DNA from: Arctopsyche grandis
Lineage: Eukaryota > Arthropoda > Insecta > Trichoptera > Hydropsychidae
Direction of reading: 5' to 3'
DNA length: 64,000 bases
Assembly: GCF_051622035.1 (NCBI RefSeq)
Contig: NC_135357.1
Span: 32,716,191 to 32,780,190 of the forward strand
Below are positions 25,847 through 58,870 of the stretch, piece by piece. The notes below the pieces were generated by a model that searched no databases, had not been told where the DNA came from, and saw only the letters and a program-made list of their open reading frames with translations. The stretch's first letter is position 1. Each line of letters begins with the position of its first letter. The position numbers were made by a program, and so were the translations under genes.

Positions 25847-26007
25847 CAGTGGCGTGCGGTGAAATTCTTTCTCTTTTTGTCGTACAGCCTTACTTAATAT
25901 GCGCGAACAGGATACAAGGGGAACAGCCTGTTCCTATTGTATCCTGCTCGCGCACATTATTTAAGGCTGTACGACAAAAAGAGAGAGAATTTCACCGCAC
26001 GCCACTG
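25847..26007. mobile_element. Palindromic hAT-like MITE, 161 bp
   Basis: CAGTGGCGTGCGGTGAAATT at the left is answered by the inverted AATTTCACCGCACGCCACTG at the right. Most of the element is self-complementary, with GTCGTACAGCC and TGCGCGA arms. The flanks TGTTCAGT (25839-25846) and GGTTCAGT (26008-26015) match at 7 of 8 bases, as for hAT. It inserted in intron 2 of the serpin pseudogene. Confidence 0.85.
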
Positions 26008-26027
26008 GGTTCAGTGTATATGTTACA

Positions 26028-26275
26028 GTTGAACTGTATCTTCCAATTGTAATATATTTTGACTAGAAGGAATATATTCCATCTAACCTGGTACCGACTA
26101 CCGTTATAGTTGAAGTGTATTTTCAGTTATAATATATTTTGACTAGTTGGGATATATTCCGTCAATCTAACATAAGCCGATTCATAAGGCGAATTACATT
26201 CCAACCAGTCAAAATATACTACAACTGAAAATAAACCTCAATTATAAGTTGATACTAGGTTAGATGGAGAGGTTA
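26028..26275. repeat. Direct and inverted repeat cluster
   Basis: A segment of about 70 bp (AGTTGAASTGTAT then AATATATTTTGACTAG) occurs twice in direct order (26030 and 26105). It occurs a third time inverted (about 26195-26262, CCAGTCAAAATATACTACAA). It is probably a palindromic MITE with one arm duplicated. Confidence 0.6.
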
Positions 26276-26378
26276 GGATTTCGTGTAAACGTCACTCAAA
26301 CTTTCAGGAGAGTCACATTTTTGTTTTGAACACATCTTAGAATTATCATAAAACGATACGCATTACCTTTATTCATAA

Positions 26379-26535
26379 CTAGTGTTGTACCCGATGATAT
26401 ATCATCGCATTAGTGTTGGCATATTAAGTTATTAAATAAAAAAACATTAAAAGAAATGTGGCGTCGGTCATGTGTTCGATCCCCCACGCGGTTCAATTTT
26501 TTCAAATAACTTTTAAATAAGATTTTAAATCATCA
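26379..26535 (-). mobile_element. Helitron-like 3' end
   Basis: Read on the minus strand, the perfect hairpin CGATGATATATCATCG is followed by a short spacer and the tip ACACTAG, then T. This is the classical 3' terminus of a Helitron. Upstream of it (26,460-26,500) is TGTTCGATCCCCC, a tRNA B-box-like motif. The same arrangement, more decayed, is at 32,770-32,885. The 5' tip was not found. Confidence 0.5.
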
Positions 26536-27110
26536 CGTGTGTTACGTAATTTTTTGAATATACATACATATAGCCAAAATGGATCAATAGTAGATACAAT
26601 ATAAGTCAAATCATTATAATTAAAAATAAACTAGAAAATATGTATGTATATATTTCAGTAAAAGCGTAAAGTCTCGCAGATGTGTACATTGTCTAGAAAG
26701 TGCATAAACCCAACCAATTTCGACGATGCATACACAGTCTAGAGAATGTATATGTTACAGTGAAAGCATATTCAATTCAAGCAGTGAAAATGTATCAAAC
26801 AATGAACTTACAACGCTTAACTCTACAAAGTTAACCCTAACAACCCGATCTTAAATTAATAGGGCCAACCCTTACTTAACCTAACCTATCCTAACCCTTA
26901 AATAATACCAATTCTAACAATCTAATCTTAAATGAATAAAACCAACCTCGAAAATGTAACTGTTTATGATTTCACTGAAACGCCAGAGAAAATATATTTT
27001 CACTTGAAATATAATTTCACTATTCATCAGCACGCTTTACAGTCTTACTGTAACGTATACATAGTTACCGAGCATAATCTTCTTTAACATATGTATGTAT
27101 GTTTATTATA
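26536..27110. other. Non-coding stretch in the swollen serpin intron
   Basis: AT-rich with no gene. Around 26,830-26,960 there are scattered CTAACC and CCTAACC motifs (AACCCTTACTTAACCTAACC), resembling the complement of the insect telomere unit TTAGG but not tandem. They are probably decayed relatives of the satellite at the right end of the window. Confidence 0.35.
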
Positions 27111-28199
27111 ATATTATTATTGAAGGGGTCTGTTGGGCCTGACGGTGTGCCCCCTGACGTATTAAATGCATGCTGTAATTCGCTCTTAGAGCCTCTTCAG
27201 TTTATTTTTAACCTTATTCTGGGTTCTGGTATTATCCTGAAAAATGGAAATTATCTAGAGTCATTCCCATTCATAAAAGTGGCTCTAAAAATGAGGTTGA
27301 AAATTACAGACCTATTGCTATCATCTCGGCTATTCCCAAAATTTTCGATAATATCCTTCACCGTTTGATTCTTTTGCAGTTCAAAAGATTGTTGTGTGAT
27401 GAGCAGCATGGTTTTTCACCATGTCGTTCCACTACCACTAATCTTGCCTGCTTTTCACATTAAACCATGTCTAAAGTTGACCGTGGACAACAAGTTGATG
27501 TAGCCTACTTTGACTTTCGAAAAGCATTTGATCTTGTCAACAATGACGCTCTTATGATCAGATTAGCTGAAGTGGGCTTTTCTCCACGTCTTCTTAAACT
27601 CTCTGCTTCTTATCTTAGTGATAGGAAGCAATTTGTTAGATATGGTATTTATGAATCTCCTTCATTTTTAACGCGATCTGGTGTAACTCAGGGGTCCACC
27701 TTAGGCCCTTTACTATTTACAATAGTCATTAATAACCTCCCTAAAGTACTACGCAATGCTTCATGTCTCTTGTTTGCAGACGACGTTAAACTATTCTTTG
27801 CTGTTAAGGATGAGAGGCAAGCCTCTCTCCTTCAAGCTGATATTAACGCTGTTTTAGAGTTCAGTTCCAGTTTAGGGCTTGAACTGAATACTAGTAATGT
27901 GCCATTATGAGTTATGGACGTGCGAATTCGCTCTATTGTCACGGATATTCCATTGGATCCGTATTGTTGAAGCGCGTGGAATCAATGGTCGACTTGGGTA
28001 TCACTTTTGATCCTCAATTCACCTTTCACAACCACATCAAGACAATCGCTGACGATTCCTTTCGTCGACTTGGATTTGTCTTGAGATATGCTAGATTATT
28101 CTCCAACCCCTTGTCTTCTCGCTTGCTTTTCAACTCGCTTGTTAGAAGTAAGCTAGAGTATAATGCAATTGTGTGGAATCCGCATGAAGCAAACTACTC

Positions 28200-28387
28200 T
28201 CTTATAATAATAATAATAATAATAATAATAGCTTTTATTCCAGACGATGAGGAGAATAGTGCAATCCCCAACGCCCATATAAATAATATATAGATAATAA
28301 AAAAAAAAGTATTGAAAAATGGTAAACAAAAAATAAATAAATAAATACAATTAAATAATAAATTAAATAAATAAATTAATAAATTAT
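28200..28387. repeat. TAA-repeat-led insertion in the retrotransposon
   Basis: A TAA run (28,204-28,230), then about 70 bp of unique sequence, then an A-rich tail with AAATA repeats (28,300-28,386) interrupt the reverse-transcriptase frame between ANYSL and EKVQKAF. A simple-repeat head with an A-rich tail suggests a short 3' piece of another retroelement, possibly a SINE. The family was not recognised. Confidence 0.5.
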
Positions 28388-29159
28388 AGAAAAAGTGCAA
28401 AAAGCATTTCTTCGTTTTCTTTATAAGAAAGAGTATGGGTATTACCCATATATCTATCCTACTCCTTTCCAATTGGGCATGCTTGGGTATAATTCCCTTG
28501 AACTTCGGAGAAACTTCTCGTTAATTCGTTTCGTTGTCCAGCTATTGCGTGGTAATACGTCATGCCCGTTGTTGCTGGAACAGTTGGGACTTTATGTCCC
28601 TAATAATTATGTGCGTGGTAGACATCATCATTTGATGGTTGTACCTGCTGCTCGCACAGTTCTTTTTCGAATGGCTCCTATTCCAAGAGCTATTCGACTC
28701 CTCAATTAGATCATTGCTGCTGTCCCTGAATGTGATATTTTCCACCTTGGGGAGCGTAGATTATCGGATATTATCTTAACATATTTATCTGGTAACCTGC
28801 GCTCATCATTACTTTCTTAATTTGAGTGTGATGAATGAGTGGAATCTTAATCTACTCTCTTCCATTTGGGCCTCGCTGTGATTTTATTTTTTATTCATAT
28901 TTTGTTTTATTTTATTTTAATTTTTCTTTCTCCTTTGTACATATTTATATACTATTTTAATTTTGTTCAGTGTAAACAAAGAATGGGATTTATGGATTTT
29001 ATTTTTAATTTTTACACTTTTGTTATTTTTTTTTCTCTCTGAATGATGTATTATATTCCTTTTGTTACTTTTTTTTTATTATTTTATTTTACCATGTTTT
29101 CTGCTTTTGCTTTTTTTCTTTATTTACAGTTTACTTGTTTTTATATATTTTTCAAATGT

Positions 29160-29207
29160 AGGCCATTGTGGCGCATTAGGTTCTTCCTGTAATGCCACAA
29201 TGGTCCA
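29160..29207 (+). repeat. Stem-loop at the retrotransposon 3' end
   Basis: GGCCATTGTGGCGCATTA pairs with TAATGCCACAATGGTCC across the loop GGTTCTTCCTG. It lies directly before the A-rich tail. Non-LTR elements often end in a structure that their reverse transcriptase recognises. The 47.6-kb relic keeps the first half (GACCATTGTGGC), which supports a family trait. Confidence 0.65.
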
Positions 29208-29761
29208 AAACTATTAAATTAATAAATAATTTCACCGAATCGAATGTAAGCAAATAAGCTGAGACTGACACTTATTTAAAAAAAGAAGGGGTTTTTCAGG
29301 AGAAATTAAGTGTACAAAATACGAGAAAACGTTTAAAAAAATTACATATACTTATAGTATGGAACTGAATAGACATTTTTCATTTAATTTTAATTTTGAT
29401 GAAATTACTCTTACTAATAAATTCTTACCCAAAAAATTTTGGGAAAATCTGTTTTGGTATACATATATGTATGTATGTACAGACATACATACATATAACT
29501 ACTTGACTTGGAAACAGAATTTAAGTAATTGTGAAAAAGTACTTGTGAATTGTGAAAAAGTACCATGTATAACTCATTTGAAAATTTATTGATAGAAGTC
29601 GACAGTTGATTTTGAATTTCTACATCAGTTGTCTGACAGCATCCCAGTATAATAAACGACATCAGTAAAATTACTAAGAACAAAATTCATCTAAATGTAA
29701 AATAACAATTTTTTTTTTAAATATCGAATAAAATGGTGTATTTTTATTTGATACCTCTCAT

Positions 29762-30602
29762 GGTGGGTTTTGAAGTTTGCGATCTGGAAAATTTGAAATT
29801 GATCACATCTAGCAACATTTCAACTGCTGTGCTTCAATGTGTCAACGCTGAGAAACAAACTGCAAATGAAATTAAAGCTGTAAAATGTGATGCGAATACA
29901 GCAACCTCTTGTGCACACAACGCTAGTAATTTATGGATTTTATTATTATTACTAGCCTCTTCTTACTTCACTTTAGATTTTTTCGTCTGACGAAATTTGG
30001 GTTCTTTTCCCTGCTTTTCCGATCGTTTTCAAACTTTGCCATTTTGCTCGATTTGGTCATCAATATATGTATATGGAAGTCCAACATTACGATGGTGAAA
30101 AATAATCGTAATAGACACGTTTGAAAATACTCCATAATCTTTCTCGGTGATATCTATTGTCCACATTGACGCATGTTCCGGTCGTTTTTTCTCTTTTCGC
30201 CACACTCTCGCTATGTCAGATTTTACAACTTTTTCTTTTTTCACACTATATTTTATAAAATTTTCTTTATACGCTATCATTATATCTCGTATATACATAC
30301 ATATGTACATATATATTTTTAGTTGTATCTCTCATATAATTAAAATTTAATTTTTGAAAAAAAATCCAAATGAAATTCATCCTTAAATGGTTGATAGATT
30401 AACGAGACTAATGTCAAATTACCTTCTGTTTTTATGTAATGCAAATCTACAGTTTTCAATTACGAACCATCACTAAATAGTTTGATGTAGTCGAAGTAGT
30501 TAATTTTTTTCAATTTACATCCACCCGAGCAACGCCTTGCATTAAAATTTCAAGTAACATTTAATAATAAAGTTGTTTTGCTCAATATGTATATGTATGT
30601 AT
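29762..30602. other. Upstream flank of the serpin pseudogene, non-coding
   Basis: Near 29,762-29,905 it still resembles the promoter and leader of the intact serpins (GTGTCAACGCTGAG, TGCAAATG) but the TATA box is lost. From about 29,985 to 30,260 the minus strand is open (ARVWRKEKKRPEHASMW, then DITEKDYGVFSNVSITIIF). Its origin is not recognised, and I do not call it a gene. Confidence 0.4.
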
Positions 30603-38816: not shown

Positions 38817-41505
38817 TTATAGAAAACGTTTTGTATATTTTCGAGTAGCTCTTGGATTGGGTGTACGTGTTTTACGTGGCCTAGGTTTCGGCGTAGGATA
38901 AATTACATTTATTGGCTTAGGAGTAACCACTTCCATCGGTTTTTTGTCGATTATGATTCTATTTTCAGTGCTAACTCCGAATCGTCCCATAAATAATATA
39001 TCGCCAGTCGACGTCTTTATAAAGTACAAAAATGGATGGTCAGCATTAAACCTCTTCGGTTCTTCAACATCGATAACAGAAGTTATTCCAGATCCTCCAA
39101 TAGCTATAACAAAATTTGAATTTAGATTAATAAACTGCTAAAAATAAATCTTAACGTAGAGCTCGTTCCGTTTTCAAAGGCCCATCTCCAGGGACGTCAT
39201 ATATCAGCCTTTTCTTGGGGGTGGGGGGGGGGGGGCAGACAAAAAATTATCTAATTAAATTTTTTTGTAATGAAAATGTTGTAATAAAAGCGAATGTATA
39301 TCTTACGGTGAAACTATTATGAAGCGAGTATACCCTTTTTGTATTGCTGGAGATTTTTGTACCAAATCTAGATAGGCTTTCGGATTCTCATTTACATATT
39401 TTAGCATTATTTAGAAACTACTTTAAATAAGTTTACAATTATAATTACATTTTTTTCAGTTAATAGATATATGTATTATGTACTATTTTTTTTATATTTT
39501 GTAAATAAAAAAATATATTTTTTTATTAATAAAAAATATATTAAATTGAAAAAAAAATGTTTTTTTTACATGTGTCCGAGAATTCCGGGAATCCCGTGAT
39601 CCGTTCCGTGCCCCGGGAATTGAAAAAGTCCGGGTATGCAAAAACCCTAGTAGTGGTAGAGGTAGTTAACTACCTACTCTTAGCACAAAATGGTCATTGG
39701 TCGATGTGTCGGGAGATCTTTTTGGCTGTTGTATACAGCTTGTTCATTGGTCGAGACTTTTTGGAGCGAATTGATCCAGATGGTCCATGAGCATAAATTA
39801 CCTAATCTCTACATAACAATATCTTACACAATTGGAAAGATCTCCACTACATTTTTTGGATATTTTTTGCTCACCTGTGACAGCTGCAGCTTCTGCTCCT
39901 TCTTCATTCACTTCAATGAAAGCTTTCTGAATGACAAAAGTTACGTAAATTTGTTCATCAGATTTAAGTAATCCCAATAAATTTGCACTTTTCGGAGAGA
40001 ACATCGACGTCATACCCAACTGATTTAAAAAAAATAATGTTTAAAATAAAATCAATAGCAATTCAAGTATTGTATACATTTTTTTTTACAAACACCTTTT
40101 GCAATATTGGATTTAGTTTCATCGTGGTTTCAATTTTGAATTTTGGAATGCTAACTGAAAGTTCGTTTGGGAGCAGTTCATCAAATACTGTCTGTTTCAA
40201 ATTTGAATTCATGACGTTTTTCTCCAAATTTGCCAATCCGTCGATTTGATTAGGTAGAATTATAACCATAGACACATTTCGTTTCTCATATTGCATTTCT
40301 AGAGCCTAAGAATAAAACAAATATTATGAACCAAACATGCTATAAGTGCATATAAATCAAAATTTCATATTTTACTCCAGACTTTTTATTTATATAATAG
40401 ATAACCTGTGCATCCCATTGTGGAAGATCTGCGTATTTAAACGAATCAACTTTGTTCATCATATCGACTTCAAATGCTTTACTAGAACTCAAACTGAATT
40501 CGCTTTTGATTGTTTTTGCAGCATCAAATTTTAATTCCCACGTTCCCTATAGAAATGACTGTTAATTTATTATAATCACTCAGATAAAAAAAATAACGGA
40601 AATAACCCCAAAAGTCATTTTACCTTAAAGTAAATGGCGTTTATGAGAATTAAGCGTGTAGATTCATTAAGTAAATCTTGGGAAATTATATTTTTAATTT
40701 TACTGTTTGTTTTCTCCTCAACCTGTATAAATAAGAAAACACATATAATGCACTCAATTAAATTAATAAAATGAGAAAAAGTTCTGAATACGAACCCAAG
40801 TGTTTATTATAGCAGCAGCTTCCTCACTTAAAGCGAATTCGATATTTTCTATATCAGATGAAAATGAATCGACTGCCGAGCTTCTAAAATCTTCGTTCAG
40901 AACGAGATTTTTTTTGACGTAGAGTTTATTGGCAATATTTAGTGTGACGCCTTGAATATTGTTTAAACGATTCATGGCAGATTTAAAAGCTGATTTTGTC
41001 TACAAGTAATACTACACATAAAAGAAATTCATTTCTCATCAAGAAGATATCAAGTCATCAAGAAGATATTATTGTCGTACAAAATCTGAGTTCGGTAAGT
41101 GAAGAGCAGTGTTGATCTCATCTAAAGTCTTTCCTCCAGCTCCCAATGACAATAGAGCAAGAGCAAAATGTGCAGACATTCCTGACATTATCAAATCATC
41201 AGATGGTTGAGCCTCAGCTACTTCCTAGTCATCAAATGTTGTTCAATATATTACTTAACATGTATAAATTTATACTTCTGAAATATTAGTGGAAAATATA
41301 TAAATTATTTAAGTACTGTATAAAACTGATTCGAAAATTTATTGCTGGAACTCAAAAGTTGAATGTCTAGATCAGTTGTTTGACAGCATCCAAGTATAAT
41401 AAACGACATCAGCACAATTACTGAAATCGAAATTTTAATTTATAATAATGGAAAATTTTGTATAATACAGTGTGTGTGTATTTTATTCTATTTGTTACCT
41501 CTCAT
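38817..41505 (-). pseudogene. Serpin S1, nine exons, frameshift in the reactive-loop exon
   Basis: Serpins are secreted suicide inhibitors of serine proteases. Exons: 41505-41499, 41420-41317, 41224-41081, 40999-40796, 40722-40624, 40546-40406, 40305-40096, 40019-39875 and 39104-38817. Exons 1-2 give the signal peptide ([15 protein letters not shown]). Exon 6 has GTWELKF. Exon 8 ends with the inhibitory hinge [11 protein letters not shown]. In exon 9 the frame set by the hinge reads AIGGSGITSVIDVEETEEV and meets TAA at 39048-39046, giving about 370 residues. The conserved [17 protein letters not shown] follows in another frame, so a net one-base change disables it. The exon 3 donor is weak (GTACGA). 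Expected P1 is near Ile. An assembly error at one base would restore it. Confidence 0.8.
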
Positions 41506-41605
41506 GGTTGGTTTTAAAGATTGTGACTTGGGATGTTTAAAATCGATAACACCTGGCAATATTTCAATTGCCATATTTTGATGTGTCAACGTTGAGAGTC
41601 GAACA

Positions 41606-43260: not shown

Positions 43261-46200
43261 TTACTTAGTTATAGGCATCGTTTTGTATATATAGCGAGTA
43301 GCTCTTGGATTGGGTGTACGTGTTTTATGTGGTCTTGGTTTCGGCGTGGGATAAATTACATTTGTTGGTTTAGGAGTAACCACTTCCATCGGTTTTTTGT
43401 CGATTATGATTCTATTTCCAGTGCTAACTCCGAATCGTCCCATAAATAATATATCACCAGTCGACGTCTTTATAAAGTACAAAAATGGATGGTCAGCATT
43501 AAACCTCTTAACAGACATAGCAGCAGATGTTGCAGATACTCCAATAACTATAAACAAAATTGAAAATAGATTAATAAACTGCTAATAAGAAGAGGTTAGT
43601 AAAAATAAATCTTAACGTAGAGCTCGTTCGGTTTTTAAAGGACCATCTCTACTCCTTAGGAAAGGTGTGCAGACATAATGATTAGTATAGACAGTGCCGA
43701 ATTTAGGAGAAGGCTTGGTCGGGGGGGCACCCGAGGGCGCCGAGTAAGTTAGGGCGCCACTCGATGCACCGAATGCGCTTTGAAATTTAAAATTAGAATG
43801 CAATAGGCCCTAATTTTTTTAGATTTGAGGGCCAAAAGCCATTGATGCTTTTTTGAAGGGTTTTAATGGATAGCTTTGTGGAAGATGATTTATAATTTTG
43901 TGTTATATGCATTAGCAGTTCGCTAAATAAATAAAACATAAAAGCGCTTCTACTTTCTAAACTGTACACATGTTTACACCATGTTTAGCTTCAATATATC
44001 GCTGGACGATTCTAACTGATTCACGTGCAATTATATTCCTTAAATAATTCTTTATTATCTAACACACGATGGGAAGCGAAAAAATCAAGTGTCAAAGCAG
44101 TTCGTTATTAAATTGTTGACGTTCATGAGGTTTTAATTACTTTATCTGAAACTGAATTGAATGATCCAGGTGTAGCTCATGAAGCAATCACATTAGAGGA
44201 ACAATTAAAAGATTTCAGCTTTCTTGTTTCATTTATTGTTTGGTACGGTGTTCTTTAGCAATTAAATTCATTTTTATTTCTCAGATACAACATTAGTGTC
44301 AATGAAAGAAAGATTCGAACAGTTGAACAAATATTCAGAGACGTGCTGGTTTTGTGTATTTTGTTAACAATCTACCGGAAAGAGCCGATCTTCAAATTAA
44401 GCTCACCGCGAATTAAATATATGATATTATTAGTAATGAACTTAGCGTAGAATCTAGTATTTTAAAAGCCTTTCTTTCAAATAAAAATTTAGGTAAAATA
44501 ATTCCACTCATTGTATTAAATTTTATTAGACAGTATGATTTACAAGAATTGTATCCGAACATTTGGGTTGCTATGCAAATTTTGCTGACACAGCATGAAA
44601 CTGTATCAAGTGGTGAACGTAGTTTTTTGAAACTTAAAACTTATCTCCGGTCTACAATGTCATAAAATAGACTTTCCAAATTTCAAACTCTATGTACTCA
44701 TAATGATATCGCAGAAAATTTTGATTTTTCAGCTTTAAGATTTTAGATTTTCAGCTTTAAGGTTGATTTTACTGAAAGAAAGGCTCGGAAATTTAACTTT
44801 TGAATTGTCATTTTATTTATTTTTAACTACGCCGTTGAGAAATATTGTTAACCATTTTGCTTCAGACGGTTTATTGGTTTAAGACAAATTCCAACAAATA
44901 TCGATGAAATAATATGAATGGACAGACGGAGCATCGCGTATGCATTTGCGCAACTGAGCATCGCATATGCAAATTTTCCGGCTGTCGTTTTTCTGCATCG
45001 GAATTGGTCGTTTGTTTATTGGTTCCCTTGGTAGAATTAACGGAACGGGAAATACAACTGCAAAGGGATTCGTTGACTCCAACCAACAATACCACGTTGC
45101 ACCCCTTTTTAGCACGAATGCGCGATCAGGCGATTCGTGATGGTAGACCAGTGGTCCATGAGCATAAATTACCTAATCTCTACATGACAATATCTTACAC
45201 AATTGGAAAGATATCCACTAGATTTTTTGGATATTTTATGATCACCTGTGACAGCTGCAGCTTCTGCTCCTTCTTCATTCACTTCAATGAAAGCTTTCTG
45301 AATGACAAAAGCTACGTAAAGTTGCTCATTAGATTTAAGCAATCCCAATAAATTTGCACTGCTCGGCGAGAACATCGACGTCATACCCAACTGATTTAAA
45401 AATAATAATGTTTAAAATAAAATCAATAGCAATTCAAGTATTGTATACATTTTTTTTTACAAACACCTTTTGCAATATTGGATTTAGTTTCATCGTGGTT
45501 TCAATTTTGAATTTTGGAATGCTAACTGAAAGTTCGTTTGGGAGCAGTTCATCAAATACTGTCTGTTTCAAATTTGAATTCATGACGTTTTTCTCCAAAT
45601 TTGCCAATCCGTCGATTTGATTAGGTAGAATTATAACCATAGACACATTTCGTTTCTCATATTGCATTTCTAGAGCCTAAGAATAAAACAAATATTATGA
45701 ACCAAACATGCTATAAGTGCATATAAATCAAAATTTCATATTTTCCTCCAGACTTTTTATTTATATAATAGATAACCTGTGCATCCCATTGTGGAAGATC
45801 TGCGTATTTAAACGAATCAACTTTGTTCATCATATCGACTTCAAATGCTTTACTAGAACTCAAACTGAATTCGCTTTTGATTGTTTTTGCAGCATCAAAT
45901 TTTAATTCCCACGTTCCCTATAAGAAATGACTGTTAATTTATTATAATCACTCAGATAAAAAAAAATAACGGAAATAACCCCAATAGTCGTTTTACCTTA
46001 AAGTAAATGGCGTTTATGAGAATTAAGCGTGTAAATGCATTAAGTAAATCGGGGGTAATTATATTTTTAATTTTACTGTTAGTTTTCTCTTCAACCTGTA
46101 TAAATAAGAAAACACATATAATGCACTCAATTATTTAAATTAATAAAATGAGAAAATGTTCTGAATACGAACCCAAGTGTTTATTATAGCAGCAGCTTCC

Positions 46201-46871
46201 TCATTTAAAGCGAATTCGATATTTTCTATATCAGATGAAAATGAATCGACTGCCGAGCTTCTAAAATCTGCGTTCAGAACGTAATCTTTTTTGACGTAGA
46301 GTTTATTGGCAATATTTAATGTGACGCCTTGAATATTGTTTAAACGATTCATGGCTGATTTAAAAGCTGATTTTGTCTACAAGTAATACCACACATACAA
46401 TGAAATTCATTTCTTAATAAGTTATCAAGAAGATATTATTATCTTACAAAATCTGAGTTCGGTAAGTGAAGAGCAGTGTTGATTTCATCCAACGTCTTTC
46501 CTCCAGCTCCCAATGACAATAGAGCAAGAGCAAAATGTGCAGACATTCCTGACATTATCAAATCATCAGATGGCTTAGCCTCAGCTACTTTCTAGTCATC
46601 AAATGTTGTTCAATATATAACTTAACACGTATAAATGTATACTTCTGAAATATTAGTGGAAAATATATAAATTATAAAGTACCGTATAAAGCTGATTCGA
46701 AAATTTATTGCTGGAACTCAAAAGTTGAATGTCTAGATCAGTTGTTTGACAGCATCCAAGTATAATAAACGACATCAGCACAATTACTGAAATCGAAATT
46801 TTAATTTATAATAATGGGAAATTTTGTTTAATTCAGAATTTGTGTATTTTATTGTATTTGTTACCTTTCAT
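43261..46871 (-). CDS. Serpin S2, nine exons, intact
   Basis: A predicted secreted inhibitor of a serine protease. Exons: 46871-46865, 46786-46683, 46591-46448, 46376-46173, 46095-45997, 45917-45777, 45676-45467, 45390-45246 and 43547-43261. All junctions are GT-AG and the frame is open for 446 residues. The signal peptide is [19 protein letters not shown]. The core has [41 protein letters not shown] and [13 protein letters not shown]. The hinge [11 protein letters not shown] matches inhibitory serpins. The loop [14 protein letters not shown] puts Thr-Ser at P1-P1' by alignment with moth serpin-1. [20 protein letters not shown] is the signature. A basic, proline-rich tail of about 55 residues ([18 protein letters not shown] and on) follows; typical serpins end near there. 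Intron 8 holds a hAT relic. Confidence 0.85.
43690..44862 (+). pseudogene. hAT transposase relic in S2 intron 8
   Basis: It starts with the tip CAGTGCCGAATTTAGG and a GGGGGGGCACCCGAGGGCGCC patch. The plus strand then reads [35 protein letters not shown] and, near 44,590-44,660, the dimerisation block [20 protein letters not shown], with stops between. It is the same family as the copy in S3 intron 8. The right tip was lost in a deletion at 44,862. Confidence 0.65.
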
Positions 46872-46971
46872 GGTTGGTTTTAAAGATGGTGACTTGGGAT
46901 GTTTAAAATGGATAACACCTGGCAGTATTTCAATTGCCATATTTAGATGTGTCAACGTTGAGAGTCGAACA

Positions 46972-47008
46972 GAAAATGATAATTAAACGGCAAAAAGTGT
47001 GATTTATA
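46972..47008 (-). promoter_or_regulatory. Core promoter of serpin S2
   Basis: On the minus strand TATAAAT (47008-47002) is followed by the initiator-like TCATTTTC (46979-46972), about 30 bases from TATA. A leader of about 100 bases leads to ATGAAAG, where the first coding exon ends after seven bases. Confidence 0.65.
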
Positions 47009-47179
47009 CGAGTTTTTTTGTTTACAGTGCAAATTTCGGAATTTTTTTTTAAATAAAATTTGGCATGATATTTGTCTAGATACAATTTCTCGCATTGAGA
47101 GAAGATTAAGTATTGAACAATTAATAATGAGTACTGCTTCTCCAACTGGTGATAATATCGTAGCGTAGGCAAAGAGGAG

Positions 47180-47827
47180 CCGGTGGTTAATTGGATTCGA
47201 GGATTATCCCCCGCCAGTCGGGTTGTTTTCGACGGTTACAAATTTGAAAGTTTGAAAAGTTCACAGTCGATTACCTAACCGGAAAAGACCTTTTTTCCAT
47301 TACGCACAAGCAAAATTGACTGTTAGCCGGTAAATGTGTCTGCAGTCTGCACTCAGAATCATCTTTCCGAGTAAAACCCAAAGAGTAGCTTGATAAAAAA
47401 TAGATGTAGATTTATACCAAATATTAATTAATATAATTCATTAATTACAATTTATCGTACCGCTCGTGTTATCTCAGACACACATACACACAGACGAAAT
47501 AGCGAAATTATAGACATATTTGATGATGTATTTTTTTGTCTGTTTATATATAAGTATTGAAGCGTGTGGGATCTACGGTTGATTCGGGATCAGTTTTGAT
47601 CCCGATGGATGATTGTATATTTTTATTTTTCTCATCTCCCTGTATTTTTTCGACCATTGTGGCCCACCAAACTTAAATTAAAAATAAATAAATATATGTT
47701 TTTGCAAGCAAACAGAAATGAGTACTTCTACATTGTATGTATTATATTTCATTTTACATATTGTACATACATACGTGTTATACTGGACTGTATCTAATTT
47801 TTATTTGGAAAAGGGGCACTTTTTATT
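47180..47827. other. Shortened S2 spacer with a retrotransposon relic
   Basis: From 47,240 to 47,450 it matches the spacers at 37.4 and 57.9 kb, without the MITE. At 47,555-47,610 the text TTGAAGCGTGTGGGATC to TTTTGATCCCGATGG matches the reverse-transcriptase region at 27,966-28,015 and then jumps straight to its 3' end (GACCATTGTGGCCCACC, A-rich tail to 47,700). This is an internally deleted copy of the 27-29 kb retrotransposon family. From 47,700 to 47,760 the sequence is low in information. Confidence 0.6.
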
Positions 47828-48438
47828 AATGATTAAATTGGGAACAGTATAGAAAAATGCGTTTTTGTTTTTTCAACAGTTTATTTATTATCAAGTGAAC
47901 CAAAAGCATGTATGTAATTGTTTTTTTTTTATAATTCTATACTAATGTATGTATGTGCACACATGCATTAGTCCAGTTGCCAATATTCAATTGAATCCTG
48001 TGTTTACAAATTGCATATTTGTATTGCCCTATTTACGTACATACATCTGTACAATCGTAAAATATTTTCAATTTATTACAAGGCTTTTTATTGACATTAT
48101 AACGATTAATTACAAGATGCAAGGTACATATAATGTCAGTTGAAAGTTAAATTTACGTCCTTTTTGAAAAAATAAATGTGCTTGATTATTATATAAACTT
48201 ATGTTTTTGATTATAAAACAAAACATTTTTTCAGTAAATGATTATATAAGCACGCGAAGAACATGAAAAAAATTAATTCACGGAATGCAAAATATTTGAA
48301 TTTATCAATTTAAATATAAAGTTGGCTGTGTAAAGTAAATATTTTTAATTTACTTACATAGTTATAGACAACGTTTTGTATATTTTCGAGTAGCTCTTGG
48401 ATTGGGTGTACGTGTTTTACGTGGCCTTGGTTTCGGCG
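47828..48438 (-). pseudogene. Serpin 3' flank and tail-exon fragment
   Basis: This 610-bp block is almost the same as 50,040-50,642, the 3' flank and last coding bases of S3. Bases 48,438-48,357 on the minus strand encode [20 protein letters not shown], the end of the serpin tail. The block then breaks off at GGTTTCGGCG and joins spacer block D without any upstream exon. It is a truncated gene end left by a duplication. Confidence 0.75.
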
Positions 48439-48568
48439 GTATTAATTGCATTTAACTCCACATCTTCCATGCATTTAATAACAGATTTACTAACTAGCAC
48501 TTCTTGATGCACAATTCAATGCATACGAAATATTTCGTTTTCGGTTACAAATTTGAAAGTTTGAAAAG

Positions 48569-49097
48569 TTAAGAGGGCTGGACAGCAGCGCCTTGTCCTT
48601 ACAAACTTACTATACTTCTCCCTTCCTCAATTATGGCAATAGAGAAATTATTTTTTAAAATGCTATGGATATCCACCATTGGGGTGCATCTATCGCTTTA
48701 TTTTTTTGATTAATTATTTTTAATAGGAGCTAGGAGCCGCCAAACATCTATAAAATCGCCTCTTTTTTACACCCACGAAACGAGTCCAGCGTTCTTGTTT
48801 AACGGTCGATTTAAAAAAAAATACGCCGATAGATGCACAGAAAGTATCTTTCTCAAACCGATGATGAAATTTTTTTAAAAATTGGTCCAGTTTTGGAGCA
48901 GAAAATAGTAGAATACGAAACCTCGATTTTGTCAATTTAAAATACGTTTTATCTGGTCGAAGCGCAACTGTCGCATTCACTCAATATATATATTGATATA
49001 TATTGTCGCATTCACTCAATATATACATACACTCAATATATATATCGAAGAAAGGAACGGTAACAAAATTAAGGTTTCGGGTGTACAGCCCTCTTAA
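48569..49097. mobile_element. piggyBac-like MITE in spacer block D (copy 2)
   Basis: Same element as 36,852-37,374, with TTAA on both sides and tips GAGGGCTGGACAGC/GTACAGCCCTC. It moved here as part of the duplicated block, not by a new insertion, because the flanks are identical as well. Confidence 0.8.
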
Positions 49098-49752
49098 CAG
49101 TCGATTACCTAACCGGAAAAGACCTTTTTTCCGTTATGCACAAGCAAAATTGACTGTTAGCCGTTAAATGTGTCTGCAGTCTGCACTCAGAATCATCTTT
49201 CCAAGTAAAACTCAAAGAGAAGCTTGATAAAAAAATAGATGTAGATTTATACCAAATATTAATTGATATAATTCATTAATTACATATTATCTAAATATTT
49301 GAAATTAATCAATTCACTAATTAATTTAAAATATTAATATTTTCAAGTATTTTATAGAAGTGTACATATTTGCATGTTTTAATGCTTCTAAAGGTTATTT
49401 TATATATGGTACGATTTTATGTATTTAAAATTTAATTTATTTTAGTTTGGAGATTTTAAAATTTTAAGCATTTTGGAAAACTGCGAACACTTACTTGAAA
49501 AGTGTCAAAATTTTAAATTAGAAACGTAAAAAAATCAAATTATACTATTGAATCAAATTTAACAGGTATTGGATTTATACAAATAATCATATGAAATATT
49601 ATAACATTCAAGTAAGAAAAAATTAGAAATTATATATATTTATTTTAATTTAAATTTAAATTTTCACTTAATAGTGCCTTGGACGAATAAAAATATAAAC
49701 ATATAAATTGAAAAAAAAAAATAAGAAATATATAATAATATATGTATGTATA

Positions 49753-49968
49753 TTAAAAAAAGTAAAAAATATATAAATTGAAGAAGTTTTTGGTAACTCT
49801 TCGTTTCCAAATTGGGGTGACAACACTGGTCATTGCCCATAATCGTGCAATTTGCGGCAATAACTGTGATGTTAGGGTATTTTCTTTAAATGCGAAAGGG
49901 CCATATGCATCATTCAAGGTTTCAATTCCAGCTTCTATGGCTGAGATATTGTGTGTATTATGTTTCAT
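49753..49968 (-). other. Conserved spacer reading frame (copy 2), function unknown
   Basis: Its peptide is identical to the copy at 38,030-38,245 because it lies in the duplicated block. Its preservation here says nothing about selection. Confidence 0.3.
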
Positions 49969-50565
49969 TTTACATATATGTATTATACTGGACCGTATCT
50001 AATTTTGATTTTCTGAAAAGGGGCACTTTTTTCTTATTAACTCGGGAACAGTATAGAAAAATGCGTTTTTGTTTTTTCAACAGTTTATTTATTATCAAGT
50101 GAACCAAAAGCATGTATGTAATTGTTTTTTTTTTATAATTCTATACTAATGTATGTATGTGCACACATGCATTAGTCCAGTTGCCAATATTCAATTGAAT
50201 CCTGTGTTTACAAATTGCATATTTGTATTGCCCTATTTACGTACATACATCTGTACAATCGTAAAATATTTTCAATTTATTACAAGGCTTTTTATTGACA
50301 TTATAACGATTAATTACAAGATGCAAGGTACATATAATGTCAGTTGAAAGTTAAATTTACGTCCTTTTTGAAAAAATAAATGTGCTTGATTATTATATAA
50401 ACTTATGTTTTTGATTATAAAACAAAACATTTTTTCAGTAAATGATTATATAAGCACGCGAAGAACATGAAAAAAATTAATTCACGGAATGCAAAATATT
50501 TGAATTTATCAATTTAAATATAAAGTTGGCTGTGTAAAGTAAATATTTTTAATTTACTTACATAG

Positions 50566-53500
50566 TTATAGACAACGTTTTGTATATTTTCGAGTAGCTC
50601 TTGGATTGGGTGTACGTGTTTTACGTGGCCTTGGTTTCGGCGTAGGATAAATAACATTCGTTGGTTTAGGGCTACCTCCTTCAATGGGAATCGGATCAAT
50701 AGTATTTATTGGCTTGGGAGTAACCACTTCCATCGGTTTTTTGTCGATTATGATTCTATTTCCAGTGCTAACTCCGAATCGTCCCATAAATAATATATCA
50801 CCAGTCGACGTCTTTATAAAGTACAAAAATGGATGGTCAGCATTAAACCTCTTAACAACCCTAGCAGCAGACATTCTAGATACTCCAATAACTATAAAAA
50901 AAATTGATTATAGATTAATAAACTGCTAATAAGAAGAGGTTAGTAAAAATAAATCTTAACGTAGAGCTCGTTCGGTTTTTAAAGGACCATCTCTACTCTT
51001 TAGGAAAGGTGTGCAGACACAATGATCAGTATAGACAGGGCCGATTTCAGGGAAGGTCTTGGTCGGGGGGAGCCCGAGGGTGCCGAGTAAGTTAGGGCGC
51101 CACTCGATGCACCGAATGCGCTTTGAAATTTAAAATTAGAACGTAAAAGGCCCTAAAATTTTTAGATTAGAGGGCCAAAAGCCATTGATGCTTTCTTGAA
51201 GGTTGTTAATGGATAGCTTTGTGGAAGATGATTTATAATTTTGTGTTATATGCATTAGCAGTTTGCTAAAAAATTAAACATAAAAGCGCTTCTACTTTCT
51301 AAACTTTACACATGTTTACACCATGTTTAGCTTCAATATATCGCTGGACGATTCTAACTGATTCACGTGCAATTATATTCCTTAAATAATTCCTTATTAT
51401 CTAACACACGATGGGAAGCGAAAAAATCAAGTGTCAAAGCAAAAAAAAAAATAGAAACTGAAAGAAATGATCCAGGTGTAGCTCATGAAGCAATCACATT
51501 AGAGGTACAATTAAAAGATTTCAGCTTTCTTGTTTCATTTATTGTTTGGTACGGTGTTCTTAAGCAATTAAATTCATTTTTATTTCTCAGATACAACATT
51601 AGTGTTAATGAAAGAAAGATTCGAACAGTTGAACAAATATTCAGAGACGTGCTGGTTTTGTGTATTTTGTAAACAATCTACCGGAAAGAGCCGATCTTCA
51701 AATTAAGCCCACCGCGAATTAAATATCTGATATTATTAGAAATGAACTTGAATTTATTGTAAAGTTATTAAGAAAGACGCCCGTAGACCGATGACGTCAT
51801 GGTGACGCCAACCAATGGTGGAGTCGGGCGTTGCGGCCAATGGCTGCGCCAGACTCCTTGACCAATGATAATACGTGTATGCGCTGAGCGCTCTATGATA
51901 TAAATATGGTACGCTCTCGATCGGTGGCATTTGGATCCTGGCCTCTACCTGACAAGCAGCTAATAAAGACTTGGAACCTGCCTGCGTGTTTTCTTGTACC
52001 TCGACTTGACTCCACTTACCTCTGATTACTCTTCACTATTATTTTAAAAACCTTTCTTTCAAATAAAAATCAAGGTAAAATGAATCCAATCATTGTATTA
52101 AATTTTATTAGACAGTATGATTTACAAGAATTGTATCCGAATATTTAGGTTGCTATGCAAATTTTGCTGACACAGGATGAAACTGTATCAAGTGGTGAAC
52201 ATAGTTTTTCGAAACTTAAAACTTATCTCCGGTCTACAATGTCACAAAATAGACTTTCCAATTTTGAAACTCTATGTACTCATAATGATATCGCAGAAAA
52301 TTTTGATTTTTCAGCTTTAAGGTAGATTTTACTGAAAGAAAGGCTCAGAAAGTTAACTTTTGAATTATCATTTTATTTATTTATTTACACCTGGGATTGA
52401 GAAATATTGTTAACCATTTTGCTGCCGGTCCCAAGACCTTAAGAAGAGGATGGTAATCAATTTTTAAAAAAAATTCTAGGGGCGCTTGGAAATTATTGCC
52501 CGAGGGCGCCATAGGTCCGGGCCGCACCGTGCAACTTTGTTGGCCCGGACCTATGGCGTACAGTGTTCTCTTGATTATCCGGGTGCGGATTATCCGGTTT
52601 GCGGATTATCCGTGCAAATATTAATTATTTTTTTTAAATTAATTAAATTTTGGTCTTATATAATAATGAAACGCACCGATTCATTGCGACCGTAAACATT
52701 TCAGACTAGAGTTTGCTTCCGACGGTTTATTGGTTTAAGACAAATTCTAACAAATATCGATGAAATAATATGAATGGACAGATGGAGCATCGTGTATGCA
52801 TTTGCGAAACTGAGCACCATGTATGCAAATGTTCCGGCTGTCATTGTGTTAACTTTCGTTTTCCTACGTCGGAATTGGTAGTTTGTTTATTGGGTCCCAT
52901 GGTAGAATTAACGGAACGGGAAATACAACTGCAAGGGGTTTCGTTGACTCCAACTAACAATACCACGTTGCACGTGTCACGACATAAGGTCCAAAGCTAT
53001 AAGATCCAACGACAAGGGCACCACGAAAGAAGATCCACCCGTTAGAATGCCCACCTGCTAAGTGATCCAGACAATAAAAAGCCCAGTTGATAAAACGTCC
53101 AACCGAAAATCGCCCACCCTGTTAAAGGTCCAGCCACAAAAAGTCCGAAAACAAAATATAAAACATAGATAAAGTAATAATGCTTAATAAAACGCTCCAT
53201 ATTTACATAAATCGGATATCGAGTCAATTTGACTCGATACTCGATTGAATACTCGGCGGGCTTAAATATTTTTAATTAATTTCCGAATATAATAATAATG
53301 TTAGATTAAATCGTTGCAGCAGCTGACATCGAGTCAGGTGCTGCCAATCTATTCAGCTCAACGACAATTCAGCGCAAAATCAATTTTTTCAATAAGTTTT
53401 AAATGCGTTTTCGAAAATAATTACTGTATTGAAATTGTCGGCCATATCTACATGATAATTTCATAAATGCGAATAAATTTATTTGATACTCTTTGTGCCT

Positions 53501-56500
53501 TGAAATATTATGCAAGCAGGGTTTCTCAACTAAGACCGCAAACATTTATTTTTAAGCAGGGTTTCTAAACCGGGCAGCAATTTTTTTTTTCAAATAGTTT
53601 TTCTTAGCAATCCAAACTTTTACGTATGCAGGGCTTCTGAACCAAGGTTCGCAAATCGTCATTATGAAACTTTTCATTTGATAAAAAATGGGAGATTCTT
53701 TGGTTTTCGATTTTTTCCCCAAAAATTATGTTTTCAAATCCTACGTATTCAGGGTTTCTCAACTGAGTTCCGCAAAAAATATTTCTTAAAAAGAGTAAAA
53801 TCTTACGTATGAACGGATTCTAGACCAAGGTTCGCAAGCCCGTCTTCATGGGTTCTGCTATTCATATCTAAAATGTATGTATGTATGTATTGACGTATTT
53901 ATCGGCCATTGATTTAAATTATCGTGCATTTCAAACCAATTGCAAAAAGATGCATTTGCTGTTCGTACCACTTCGGGTCTAGATATTCGGGTCTGCATAT
54001 TCACACTTACCCTATATCAAATATACGAATAATAATAATTTTTCTATAATTTTAAATATAATATGCATTACTTTGTAACGTCTATTAGACTGTTTACCGA
54101 ACAACTTAAGCTTTTATACCTTTCACTCGAACCGTATTTCCGAAATTTCATTCATTGATAGCATTTTTTTCGTCCAAGGCACAATTACATGAGAGTTCAT
54201 TAAATATTCAAAATTTGTATAATTTTTGACAAGCATTATATGAATTTTTAGATTAAATAACGGGTTTCCGGAAACTTTTGATTTTTAACAACGAGTTTCC
54301 GGAAATCCATGGAAACACCACTGACTATATGTTGAAAGAAACGGTGCCACGCCTCCAACGAATTATGTATTTGTTCTGGGAAGATTACCTATTACGCGAC
54401 TTCCAACATTCCAAATATTCGACCATTGATTTAAATTATCGAGCATTTCAATGGTGTCTTTATTAATTTAATTCAATTCACATAACAAAAAGCATTTCCT
54501 GTATTATTCTAGTCATTTTGACTTTGAGATTCGGCATACGATCCAGCTGATTGTTTGTCATATCTCATATAGTCATATGACGGCAGTTTTTATACCTACT
54601 AATCTGACCGAAAGTAAACAAAGTCATCCAAATTCTATGAAAAGGACAATGAAAATGTGTACCGTTATATGCGGGTAGGGCCTAGCGACTACCTGCGAAT
54701 ATTTCGTGTACATCGCATCGCAGAAGTGCATAAAGATATCTTCAAATGAAATATAAAAAAATAAGTTTGTAAAAAGAGCGAGCTCCAAGACTGTATGTCA
54801 GAAACTATCCAGTGCAGGGATTTCCAATCTTTTTATGCAATGGAACACTTTACAAACCCCGAAATTTTAACGGAACGTTTAGCTTATTTTTAAAGTTGAG
54901 TAAATATAAAATAAAATGTATTACTAAAACACTTATTATCCATTTCATAAATATAATTATAAATATAGTAAACAAAGCTCTCAACGACTTTGATGATTTT
55001 TAATCCTTGAATCGCAAATCTTCTTGATATCAGACACAATAAAGGTGAGCTCAATTCTTATAAATGGGGTAGCGTCGATTGTGTTCCTGCACTTTGACCA
55101 TTGTAGCATAATAAGAAAATTCTGCTGCGCATAAATAGGATGTAGAAAACAGAAGTAAGACAAAAATAGCTGGGTTTTGCCATTTTGGGGTTTTCTTCTT
55201 ACAAACTCGCTCAGAAATCTTTTAATGGCTTTAAAATTCATCTACTTTCAAATTTAAGCCATTCATCTAAGGCAGGAAAACAATCAAAATTATTAGATTC
55301 AACTGATGAAATCCAAAATTGAATTTTATCTCTTGTATTAAAAATTGTATTACCTGACTCGATATCAGCTGCTGCAACGATTTAATCTAACATTATTATT
55401 ATATTCGGAAATTAATTAAAAAAAATTAGGCCCGCCGAGTATTCAATCGAGTATCGAGTCAAATTGACTCGATATCTGATTTATGTAAATATGGAGCGAT
55501 TTATTAAACATTATTACTTTATCTATGTTTTATATTTTGTTTTCGGACTTTTTGTGGCTGGACCTTTAAAAGGGGGGACGATTTTCGGTTGGACGTTTTA
55601 TCAACTGGGCTTTTTATTGTCTGGATCACTTAGCAGGTGGGCATTCTAACGGGTGGATCTTCTTTCGTGGTGCCCTTGTCGTTGGATTTTATAGCTTTGG
55701 ACCTTATGTCGTGGAACCCACGTTGCACCCCTTTTTAACACGAATGCGCGATCAGGCGATTCGTGATGGTAGACCAGTGGTCCACGAGCATAAATTACCT
55801 AATCTGTACATGACAATATCTTACACAATTGGAAAGATATCCACTAGATTTTTTGGATATTTTATGATCACCTGTGACAGCTGCAGCTTCTGCTCCTTCT
55901 TCATTCACTTCAATAAAAGCTTTCTGAATGACAAAAGATACGTAAAGTTGCTCATCAGATTTAAGTAATCCCAATAAATTTGCACTTTTCGGCGAGAACA
56001 TCGACGTCATACCCAACTGATTTAAAAAAAATAATGTTTAAAATAAAATCAATAGAATTTCCAGAATTGAATAAAAAATATTTTTTTAAAAACCTTTTCC
56101 AATATTGGATTGAGTTTCATTGTGGTTTCAATTTTGAATTTTGGAATGCTAACTGAAACTTTGTTTGGGAGCAGTTCATCAAATACTGTCTGTTTCAAAT
56201 TTGAATTCATGACGTTTTTCTCCAAATTTGCCAATCCGTCGATTTGATTAGGTAGAATTATAACCATAGACACATTTCGTTTCTCATATTGCATTTCTAG
56301 AGCCTAAGAATAAAACAAATATTATGAACCAAACATGCTATAAGTGCATATTAATCAAAATTTAATATTTTCCTCCAGACTTTTTATTTATATAATAAAT
56401 AACCTGTGCATCCCATTGTGGAAGATCTGCGTATTTAAACGAATCCAATTTGTTCATCATATTAACTTCAAATGCTTTACTAGAACTCAAACTGAATTCG

Positions 56501-57506
56501 CTTTTGATTGTATTTGCAGCATCAAATTTTGATTCCCACGTTCCCTATAGAAATGACTGTTAATTTATTATAATTACTCAGATAAAAAAAATAACGGAAA
56601 TAAACCCCAATAGTCGTTTTACCTTAAAGTAAATGGCGTTTATGAGAATTAAGCGTGTAAAATCATTAAGGTCAACGGGATCAATTATTTTTTGAATTTT
56701 ACTGTTAGTATTCTGTTCAACCTGTATAATTAAGAAAACACATATAATGCAATCAATTATTTAAATTAATAAAATGAGAAATAGATCTGAATACGAACCC
56801 AAGTGTTTATTATAGCAGCAGCTTCCTCATTTAAAGCGAATTCGATATTTTCTATATCAGATGAAAATGAATCGACTGCCGAGCTTCTAAAATCTGCGTT
56901 CAGAACGTAATCTTTTTTGACGTAGAGTTTATTGGCAATATTTAGAGTGACGCCTTGAATATTGTTTAAACGATTCATGGCAGATTTAAAAGCTGATTTT
57001 GTCTACAAGTAATACTACACATAAAAGAAATTCATTTCTCATCAAGAAGATATCAAGTCATCAAGAAGATATAATTGTCTTACAAAATCTGAGTTCGGTA
57101 AGTGAAGAGCAGTGTTGATTTCATCTAAAGTCTCTCCTCCAGCTCCCAATGACAATAGAGCAAGAGCAAAATGTGCAGACATTCCTGACATTATCAAATC
57201 ATCAGATGGTTTGTCCACAGCTACTTCCTAGTCAACAAATGTTGTTCAATATATAACTTAACATGTATAAATTTATACTTCTGAAATATTAGTGGAAAAT
57301 ATAAATTATTTAAGTACTGTATAAAGCTGATTCGAAAATTTATTGCTGGAACTCAAAAGTTGAATGTCTAGATCAGTTGTTTGACAGCATCCAAGTATAA
57401 TAAACGACATCAGCACAATTACTGAAATCGAAATTTTAATTTATAATAATGGGAAATTTTGTTTAATTCAGTATTTGTGTATTTTATTGTATTTGTTACC
57501 TTTCAT
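50566..57506 (-). CDS. Serpin S3, nine exons, intact, with a 5-kb intron 8
   Basis: A predicted secreted protease inhibitor. Exons: 57506-57500, 57421-57318, 57227-57084, 57002-56799, 56721-56623, 56544-56404, 56303-56094, 56016-55872 and 50891-50566. The frame is open for 459 residues. The signal peptide and the hinge ([11 protein letters not shown]) are as in S2. The loop VIGVSRMSAARVVK places Met-Ser at P1-P1', with Arg at P2 (or P1 if the register shifts), so the target protease should differ from that of S2. The C-terminal tail is longer than in S2 by one proline-rich segment (INTIDPIPIEGGSPKP) and ends RKYTKRCL. The exon 7 donor is poor (AAG|GTTTTT). Intron 8 (55871-50892) carries a hAT relic with a solo LTR, a pogo-like end and a 2.7-kb long-TIR element, so correct splicing over 5 kb is the main doubt. 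Confidence 0.8.
51030..52520 (+). pseudogene. hAT transposase relic in S3 intron 8
   Basis: The tip is CAGGGCCGATTTCAGGG with a GGGGGGAGCCCGAGGG patch. The plus strand reads [36 protein letters not shown] and [20 protein letters not shown], then is broken by a solo LTR. It continues with [13 protein letters not shown] and [20 protein letters not shown], the hAT dimerisation region. It ends near 52,520 in a GGGCGCC patch. It shares its intron position with the S2 copy, so the insertion predates the S2/S3 split. Confidence 0.65.
51758..52038 (+). repeat. Solo LTR, family 3, with TTAT duplication
   Basis: It runs from TGTAAAG to CTTCACTA between direct TTAT copies (51754-51757 and 52039-52042). 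Promoter motifs lie in order: TGACGTCA (CRE-like), two CCAATG boxes, TATAAATATGG, and AATAAAG as the polyadenylation signal. The S2 copy of the same hAT relic lacks it, which gives an empty site. Confidence 0.75.
52507..52558. repeat. Perfect 17-bp inverted repeat
   Basis: CGCCATAGGTCCGGGCC (52507-52523) and its exact complement GGCCCGGACCTATGGCG (52542-52558) are separated by 18 bases. It joins the end of the hAT relic to a pogo-like tip. It may be two hAT termini brought together. Confidence 0.75.
52559..52703 (+). mobile_element. pogo-like element end
   Basis: TA then CAGTGTTCTCTTGATTATCC, with two further GGATTATCCG units. The following bases match the copy at 11,964-12,080 up to GCGACCGTAAACAT. 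No second end is present. Confidence 0.6.
52985..53150 (+). repeat. Degenerate 15-16 bp tandem repeats in the arm of the long-TIR element
   Basis: Successive units keep a TCCA or CCCA core every 15-16 bp: AGGTCCAAAGCTATA, AGATCCAACGACA, AGATCCACCCGTTAGA, ATGCCCACCTGCTAAG, TGATCCAGACAATAAA, AAGCCCAGTTGATAAA, ACGTCCAACCGAAAAT and more, about eleven in all. The inverted counterpart is at 55,545-55,705. Such arrays can serve as transposase-binding sites. Confidence 0.65.
53515..53850 (+). repeat. Five dispersed copies of a 27-bp motif
   Basis: Variants of GCAGGGTTTCTNAACC followed by NAGGTTCGCAA occur near 53,516, 53,555, 53,629, 53,748 and 53,812, separated by T- and A-rich filler. They lie inside the long-TIR element. 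They resemble repeated hAT tips, but no pairing is seen. Confidence 0.55.
54814..55245 (-). pseudogene. hAT transposase C-terminal fragment
   Basis: The minus strand ends TIDATPFIRIELTFIVSDIK then KICDSRIKNHQSR, the C-terminal signature of ZBED/SCAND3-type hAT transposases. A degraded dimerisation region precedes it (about 55,230-55,080). The tip CAGGGATTTCCAATC at 54,815 is a plausible hAT end. The fragment is nested in the long-TIR element. Confidence 0.6.
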
Positions 57507-57606
57507 GGTTGGTTTTAAAGATGGTGACTTGGGATGTTTAAAATGGATAACACCTGGCAGTATTTCAATTGCCATATTTAGATGTGTCAACGTTGAGAGT
57601 CGAACA

Positions 57607-58830: not shown

Positions 58831-58870
58831 TTTTTTCTAATTAACTTGGGAACATTATAGAAAAATGCGT

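Follow-up and report, generated by a model that had tools for sequence, protein, structure and literature searches.

The window considered here is a 64,000-nucleotide (nt) stretch of the Arctopsyche grandis genome (C3:32716191-32780190, contig NC_135357.1 of assembly GCF_051622035.1) that carries three serpin genes, termed S1, S2 and S3, in a tandem array on the minus strand. In the spliced models, for which exon boundaries were placed by protein continuity, each gene has nine exons, and 24/24 introns have GT...AG ends. Exon 8 ends in ..GTC ACA G in all three genes, which also have in common a TATA-containing stretch ahead of the first ATG, with TATAAATCACAC as part of it; in each gene the stop is followed at 238-285 nt by two or more AATAAA signals. 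In S3, the first in-frame ATG lies at 57575 and the second at 57506. An earlier note on this DNA was concerned with 43261..57506, a range that covers S2 and S3 but does not reach S1 (38817-41574). All positions are those of the window unless another sequence is named.

38817..41574, minus strand: S1 serpin gene (splice model), exons 41574-41499, 41420-41317, 41224-41081, 40999-40796, 40722-40624, 40546-40406, 40305-40096, 40019-39875, 39103-38817
43261..46940, minus strand: S2 serpin gene (splice model), exons 46940-46865, 46786-46683, 46591-46448, 46376-46173, 46095-45997, 45917-45777, 45676-45467, 45390-45246, 43547-43261
50566..57575, minus strand: S3 serpin gene (splice model), exons 57575-57500, 57421-57318, 57227-57084, 57002-56799, 56721-56623, 56544-56404, 56303-56094, 56016-55872, 50891-50566

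Residues 50-413 of S3, the protein that was scanned, match the Pfam family Serpin (PF00079) with an E of 1e-103. Assignment to the insect serpin-1 group was judged by whether Manduca serpin-1 is closest among solved serpins, and it provides the top two PDB sequences, serpin-1K (E 8.6e-83) and serpin-1B (E 2.1e-82); over exons 3-8, S1-S3 are 42-43% identical to serpin-1K. The hinge is of the inhibitory type and the same in all three proteins, and the breach motif NxWVxxxTxxKI is present in one version in S1 and S2 and as INTWVEQNTNSKI in S3; we take this motif and the hinge together as marks of inhibitory serpins. The bodies are pairwise 92-95% identical. Before the reactive loop, S1 shares 356/374 residues with S2 and 343/374 with S3, and after it 27/27 residues (the FNADHPF..GVS block) are the same throughout. 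Judged from their sequences, S1-S3 appear to be recently duplicated, presumably secreted and inhibitory-type serpins of the insect serpin-1 group.

Between these conserved parts lies the segment in which the copies differ most clearly from one another.

39051..39103, minus strand: S1 loop segment after the hinge, AIGGSGITSVIDVEEPKR, including GGSGITSVIDV; three codons longer than in S2 and S3
43504..43547, minus strand: S2 loop segment, 15 residues
50848..50891, minus strand: S3 loop segment, VIGVSRMSAARVVKR, including VSRMSAARVVK

Only 6, 6 and 11 of 15 aligned loop residues are identical in the three pairs, which bears out the description in the earlier note of a shared body with differing loops (343-356/374 identical residues before the loop versus 6-11/15 within it). 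By pair, nonsynonymous changes in the loop number 10, 10 and 6.5, and synonymous ones 0, 0 and 0.5. The proportion of differing nonsynonymous sites (pN) in the loop is 0.308, 0.305 and 0.199, compared with a gene-wide proportion at synonymous sites (pS) of 0.055, 0.058 and 0.059 (Fisher 3.6e-5, 7.3e-5 and 0.020), and nonsynonymous differences are concentrated in the loop relative to the rest of the gene (Fisher 5.9e-9, 7.7e-7 and 4.4e-4), although the three pairs are not independent and all within-window statistics rest on few events. This pattern fits diversifying selection for target choice. Relaxed constraint, or conversion with other exon-9 sequences, offers another origin for the loop differences, and the raised divergence of S3 exon 5 at both kinds of site is what patchy conversion would give. 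Changes that are nearly all amino-acid changing, set between an identical hinge and a 27/27 identical block, argue against it, and relaxation would not raise pN to three to six times the gene-wide pS; this explanation is thus considered unlikely.

The divergence in exon 5 of S3 (56623-56721) forms a second patch, with pN of 0.14-0.17 and pS of 0.09-0.19 against S1 and S2, and possibly reflects gene conversion or a second contact site.

When P1-P1' is counted as in Manduca serpin-1K and serpin-1B, with the hinge register from the PDB alignment and the cleavage sites that we assume for those proteins, the scissile bonds of S1, S2 and S3 would presumably be Ile-Thr, Thr-Ser and Met-Ser, respectively. 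In S3, Arg-Met-Ser occupies residues 16-18 counting from the first E of the hinge, and S3 may be cut after Arg or after Met.

Downstream of the block that follows the loop, the last exon of each gene continues into a basic, proline-rich tail.

38817..38969, minus strand: S1 tail, 50 codons after FGVS, stop included in the span; one internal AATAAA
43261..43422, minus strand: S2 tail, 53 codons after FGVS, with stop; last residues unlike those of S1 and S3
50566..50766, minus strand: S3 tail, 66 codons after FGVS, with stop; one internal AATAAA

Counted from the G[KR] of the serpin signature, the tails measure 54 (S1), 57 (S2) and 70 (S3) residues, in agreement with the 55-70 or so given in the earlier note, and the strings that it quoted from the hinge, the three loops (among them GGSGITSVIDV in S1 and VSRMSAARVVK in S3) and the tail are all found in the spliced models, where the tails include TPKP, and PRPHKTR in S2. 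The frame after MGRFGVS is open in 3/3 genes, compared with 1.7-4.0% of composition-preserving shuffles, and the S3 tail has one 48-nt in-frame stretch beyond S1 and S2. Indels that are not multiples of three make up 18/20 of the pairwise indels in introns 1-7 and 8/12 of those in the 260-nt 3' flank. As far as RATR, pN in the tail is 0.031, 0.026 and 0.010, compared with pS of 0.158, 0.109 and 0.155 (one-sided Fisher 0.022, 0.037 and 0.0036). Because the frame is open in 3/3 genes, the 48-nt indel is in frame and pN lies below pS, the tail is very probably translated, and the pattern points to coding constraint, which favours the treatment of the tail as protein in the earlier note.

The opposite view, that the tail is 3' untranslated sequence, that transcripts end inside it or that the exon-9 copies go unused, would draw on the AATAAA inside the S1 and S3 tails. 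It is difficult to square with the absence of a stop between signature and tail in 3/3 genes, the in-frame indel, pN below pS, and the at least two AATAAA past the stop in 3/3 genes, with none within S2 exon 9, and is regarded as very improbable. Untranslated sequence was accordingly ruled out as an identity for the tail itself, with the internal AATAAA leaving room for truncated transcripts. The presence of these signals in two tails makes an early transcript end slightly more credible, and the interpretation given below slightly less so, than would otherwise be the case.

The remaining features of the locus concern the layout and history of the copies. In a tblastn search over the window, one full exon 9 was found per gene for S1-S3. 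In S3 this exon lies at 50.9 kb, behind an intron 8 of 4980 nt whose length is largely due to an inverted-repeat insertion.

52978..55713, plus strand: 2.7 kb insertion in S3 intron 8, terminal inverted repeats of 362 nt, 97% complementary, with CCACGTTGCAC flanking both sides
24954..29827, minus strand: S0, a degenerate fourth copy; exons 1-2 lie at 29827-29567, and exons 3-6, interrupted by in-frame stops, at 25823-24954
48365..48436, minus strand: orphan tail fragment, matching the end of the S3 tail at 24/24 residues, without a serpin body

The CCACGTTGCAC stretch occurs once in S2, without the insert, and the distant exon 9 therefore most likely belongs to S3. Its assignment to another gene was ruled out, as the introns 8 of S3 and S2 align piecewise on either side of the insertion. 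S0 and the orphan tail fragment are additions to the earlier note; a search of the window found no exons 7-9 for S0. Long similar segments lie beside the serpin copies, at 36721-39188, 48438-50993 and 57894-59228, and indicate segmental duplication. The first two are 93% alike and span the last exons of S1 and S3, and the orphan fragment sits at the edge of 48438-50993. Furthermore, a satellite array with an 85-nt unit, about 52 copies and GGTTAGGTTAGGTT motifs occupies 59598-64000 and reaches the window edge.

To place the tails in the context of the genome, a serpin profile search was made, giving 140 matching places, counted exon by exon; the DNA compared consisted, in addition to the window, of twenty 10-kb stretches and one more. 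Searches for the lepidopteran chorion and coleoptericin families returned nothing, and neither did their controls. Tail counts are based on 26 matched C-terminal ends together with 12 exon-9 copies, six of which are already among the 26. These counts leave out four places at which the signature scan gave no match (L001, L003, L004 and L006), two C6 genes near 9.188 and 9.335 Mb whose ends the pattern missed, a C5 copy at 28349707 whose signature is interrupted by a stop and, for the most part, the profile-found serpin clusters at C7 22.2 Mb and C6 22.23-22.29 Mb. Short ends are seen in 11/26, from clusters on C6 and C1, all of which stop four residues past the signature. Basic tails are present in nine: the three of the window (54-70 residues), five on C5 (40-48) and one at C3:20.855 Mb (66). 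The remaining 6/26 belong to one gene at C3:20.88 Mb. In 9/9 tails, the last 25 residues include 7-10 Lys/Arg and 0-2 acidic residues. The view that a long tail is unusual for a serpin therefore holds against the 11 matched ends that stop at four residues, but not as a claim of uniqueness, given five tails on C5, one on C3 and that of alpha2-antiplasmin.

The C5 cluster (C5:28324347-28377600, L015-L021) has Tyr/Trp/Arg-rich tails of 40-48 residues and short, differing loops, such as AVLTESLNE and AIVTKGLSE in two genes that lie nearly together in the body tree. The serpin gene at C3:20855350-20857000 (L032) has a 66-residue tail whose basic end stretch contains two Cys (KPFCQKLPWRFYQKPLSNKWMKNCRRRD).

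As the earlier note had proposed, the tail was also searched for on its own. Among the best candidates scored, a genome search with the S3 tail returned only S1-S3 and the orphan fragment, while the PDB, searched with a shortened form of this tail, yielded a single match, to an unrelated protein (E 0.5). A genome search with one C5 tail returned five places, all on C5, and missed the diverged tail of C5f; such searches can therefore miss distant tails. In direct comparisons of the S1 and S3 tails with those of C5a, C5e, C5f and C3t (the C3:20.855 tail), similarity did not rise above that of shuffles (8/8 p >= 0.21), which lends no support to a common origin of the window tails and those on C5 and at C3:20.855. 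Against shuffles, the C3t tail gave p values of 0.024 with C5a, 0.08 with C5f and 0.64 with C5e, and the C5 and C3:20.855 tails may be remotely linked.

Two further explanations of the tail can be considered. One is that it is a tolerated by-product of a lengthened ancestral last exon, for example through stop-codon loss, with little function. Tails that are unlike between clusters, a drifted end in S2 and small tail counts would suit such an origin; a pN below pS in 3/3 pairs would not, nor would a basic composition in three separate gene groups as opposed to 0/11 of the matched C6 and C1 ends, and we consider a by-product improbable. A second explanation, which we rate as somewhat less probable again, is that a separate cleavage, for instance after basic residues, frees the tail as a cationic peptide of the proline-rich antimicrobial kind, with the serpin as its carrier. 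Cleavage of the loop leaves the C-terminal part of a serpin within the fold, and release of the tail by loop cleavage alone is therefore unlikely; the weak PDB match also offers this explanation no help. The composition of the tail in S1 and S3, and of a C5 tail with RPRPTFPPWWPRLPYRQRSPRYYR, does appear to resemble that of proline- and arginine-rich peptides. Some parasitoid serpins are moreover reported to be bacteriostatic (PMC10735303; this and the other papers given by PMC number are cited from excerpts).

Gene copying may not be the only route to loop variation in this genome. At C3:20874116-20890600 (L033, L035), a single exon 8 is followed by a row of 12 exon-9 copies, each of which has a loop and a stop of its own, and their ends measure 4 residues (six copies), 5 (three copies), 9, 22 and 27. 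Its structure is that of an alternative-exon gene like moth serpin-1. A tree of exons 3-8 with 24 rows, from which C5d was omitted (152/314 columns filled), groups S0-S3 with the 12-cassette gene at a support of 92/90, which is not starred, and its deep branching is unresolved; the C5 genes come out as a clade of their own (99/99). Uniting all tailed genes in a single clade is neither supported nor rejected (p-AU 0.12 when the 12-cassette gene is left out, 0.42 when it is included). This makes the window genes and the 12-cassette gene, which has no long tail, probable sisters whose loops are diversified by two different means. The earlier proposal of variation by whole-gene duplication agrees with one exon 9 per gene in three tandem copies. 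Its contrast with the exon-9 copies of moths stands for S1-S3 and does not extend to the nearest relative found in the same genome, which proved to be moth-like in arrangement, with 12 copies. Elsewhere, two exon-9-like copies lie behind one serpin body at C6:9315756-9316268 (L025, L026), perhaps a small alternative-exon case.

In serpins, the reactive loop acts as bait, and a protease that cuts it becomes trapped. Each window serpin, presumably secreted, would trap a serine protease in this way. After duplication, selection would have pulled the loops apart, with the probable result that each copy recognises a protease of its own. The last exon would also encode the proline-rich cationic tail of 50-66 residues, translated and kept by selection, and this flexible tail would most likely bind a second site on the target protease, or an anionic surface where the protease acts. 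Binding would then speed capture or set its place, as the tail of alpha2-antiplasmin does. We favour this reading, in which the tail of S1-S3 serves as an exosite or tether of the alpha2-antiplasmin type and the loops have diversified for different proteases, with a probability of roughly 0.57; gene structure, family, loop divergence, the signs of constraint on the tail and the presence of tails in other serpins of the genome are read from the sequence, and expression, secretion, inhibition, the change of target and the role of the tail are the parts we infer.

Several observations weigh against it. Ser stands at the expected P1' place in 2/3 loops only. The tails of the other clusters have no detectable similarity to those of the window, as would be the case for loosely constrained charged tails. 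In S2 the tail end has drifted to another sequence through compensating 1- and 8-nt indels, and this pair, seen in two comparisons, accounts for the 4/8 pairwise coding indels that are not multiples of three. The copies are closely related and the tail counts small, with 1-3 nonsynonymous and 3.5-5 synonymous differences per pair. Some splice donors are weak (GTTCGT, GTTATC, GTGTTT and GTTTTT). Finally, polyadenylation at the AATAAA inside the S1 and S3 tails would truncate the frame; S2 exon 9 has no such internal signal.

A broader and more tentative idea, which we hold to be possible but doubtful, is that in serpin-1-type genes of this insect the last exon acts as a two-part cassette, combining a loop that would determine which protease is caught with a cationic address tag that would determine where or how fast. 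Such tags would have arisen or been rebuilt in three gene groups, with gene copying varying the loop under a conserved tag, as an independent parallel to alpha2-antiplasmin.

What the locus offers is a view of two ways in which evolution can arrive at a new inhibitor specificity, through alternative last exons or by copying of the whole gene, in probable sister genes of one genome. A charged tail is kept in the copied genes and lacking in most of the other serpin ends examined. Should this tail be an exosite, the genes would form a natural series with independent variation of loop and tail, making their roles in target choice and speed measurable, and the tail would independently parallel the one that makes alpha2-antiplasmin a fast plasmin inhibitor.

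Comparison with known systems places the loops on familiar ground. Manduca sexta serpin-1 (PDB 1sek for serpin-1K, 1k9o for serpin-1B) has the same kind of hinge as S1-S3, NEEGAEAAA, and reportedly varies its loop through alternate exons, to go by the title of Jiang 1996; S1-S3 differ from it in their single exon 9 each, their origin as whole-gene copies and their tail. Insect serpin diversity is described as arising from both splicing and gene duplication in excerpts of PMC10513286, which also deal with Pteromalus puparum serpin-1 and an insect clade with C-terminal alternative splicing; the alternative regions there have 44-50 residues, compared with about 95-108 encoded by exon 9 in the window. 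The tandem serpins of Cotesia vestalis are copies arranged like S1-S3 and show intense positive selection around P1-P1' (PMC10735303); by term search, the excerpted text of that paper contains none of the terms C-terminal, tail and extension. Diversification of the loop by gene copying is already published; what is less usual here is the tail.

No insect serpin with a basic Pro-rich tail was met in the open-licence literature, mostly at listing level, which is weak evidence of newness. Tailed serpins are nevertheless known from other groups. Thermopin and aeropin have C-terminal tails (PMC8233489) and, unlike S1-S3, are prokaryotic, while the C-terminal extensions of PMC5691223 belong to another protein, A2M. 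The closest counterpart in function may be alpha2-antiplasmin (PDB 2r9y), which is cut at Arg376-Met377 and whose C-terminal tail of about 55 residues binds the kringles of plasmin through its lysines (PMC7785519); without the tail it is a slow inhibitor (PMC12384537). The tails of S1-S3 are of comparable length (50-66 residues after FGVS), and in S3, alone of the three, Arg and Met stand at the same places as in alpha2-antiplasmin, positions 16 and 17 when counting starts at the first hinge residue. However, this vertebrate plasma serpin is not a close relative, with 2r9y absent from the best 60 of 198 matches, and the PDB search with the shortened S3 tail found no similarity to its tail. The likeness between the two is, in our assessment, one of working and not of kinship.

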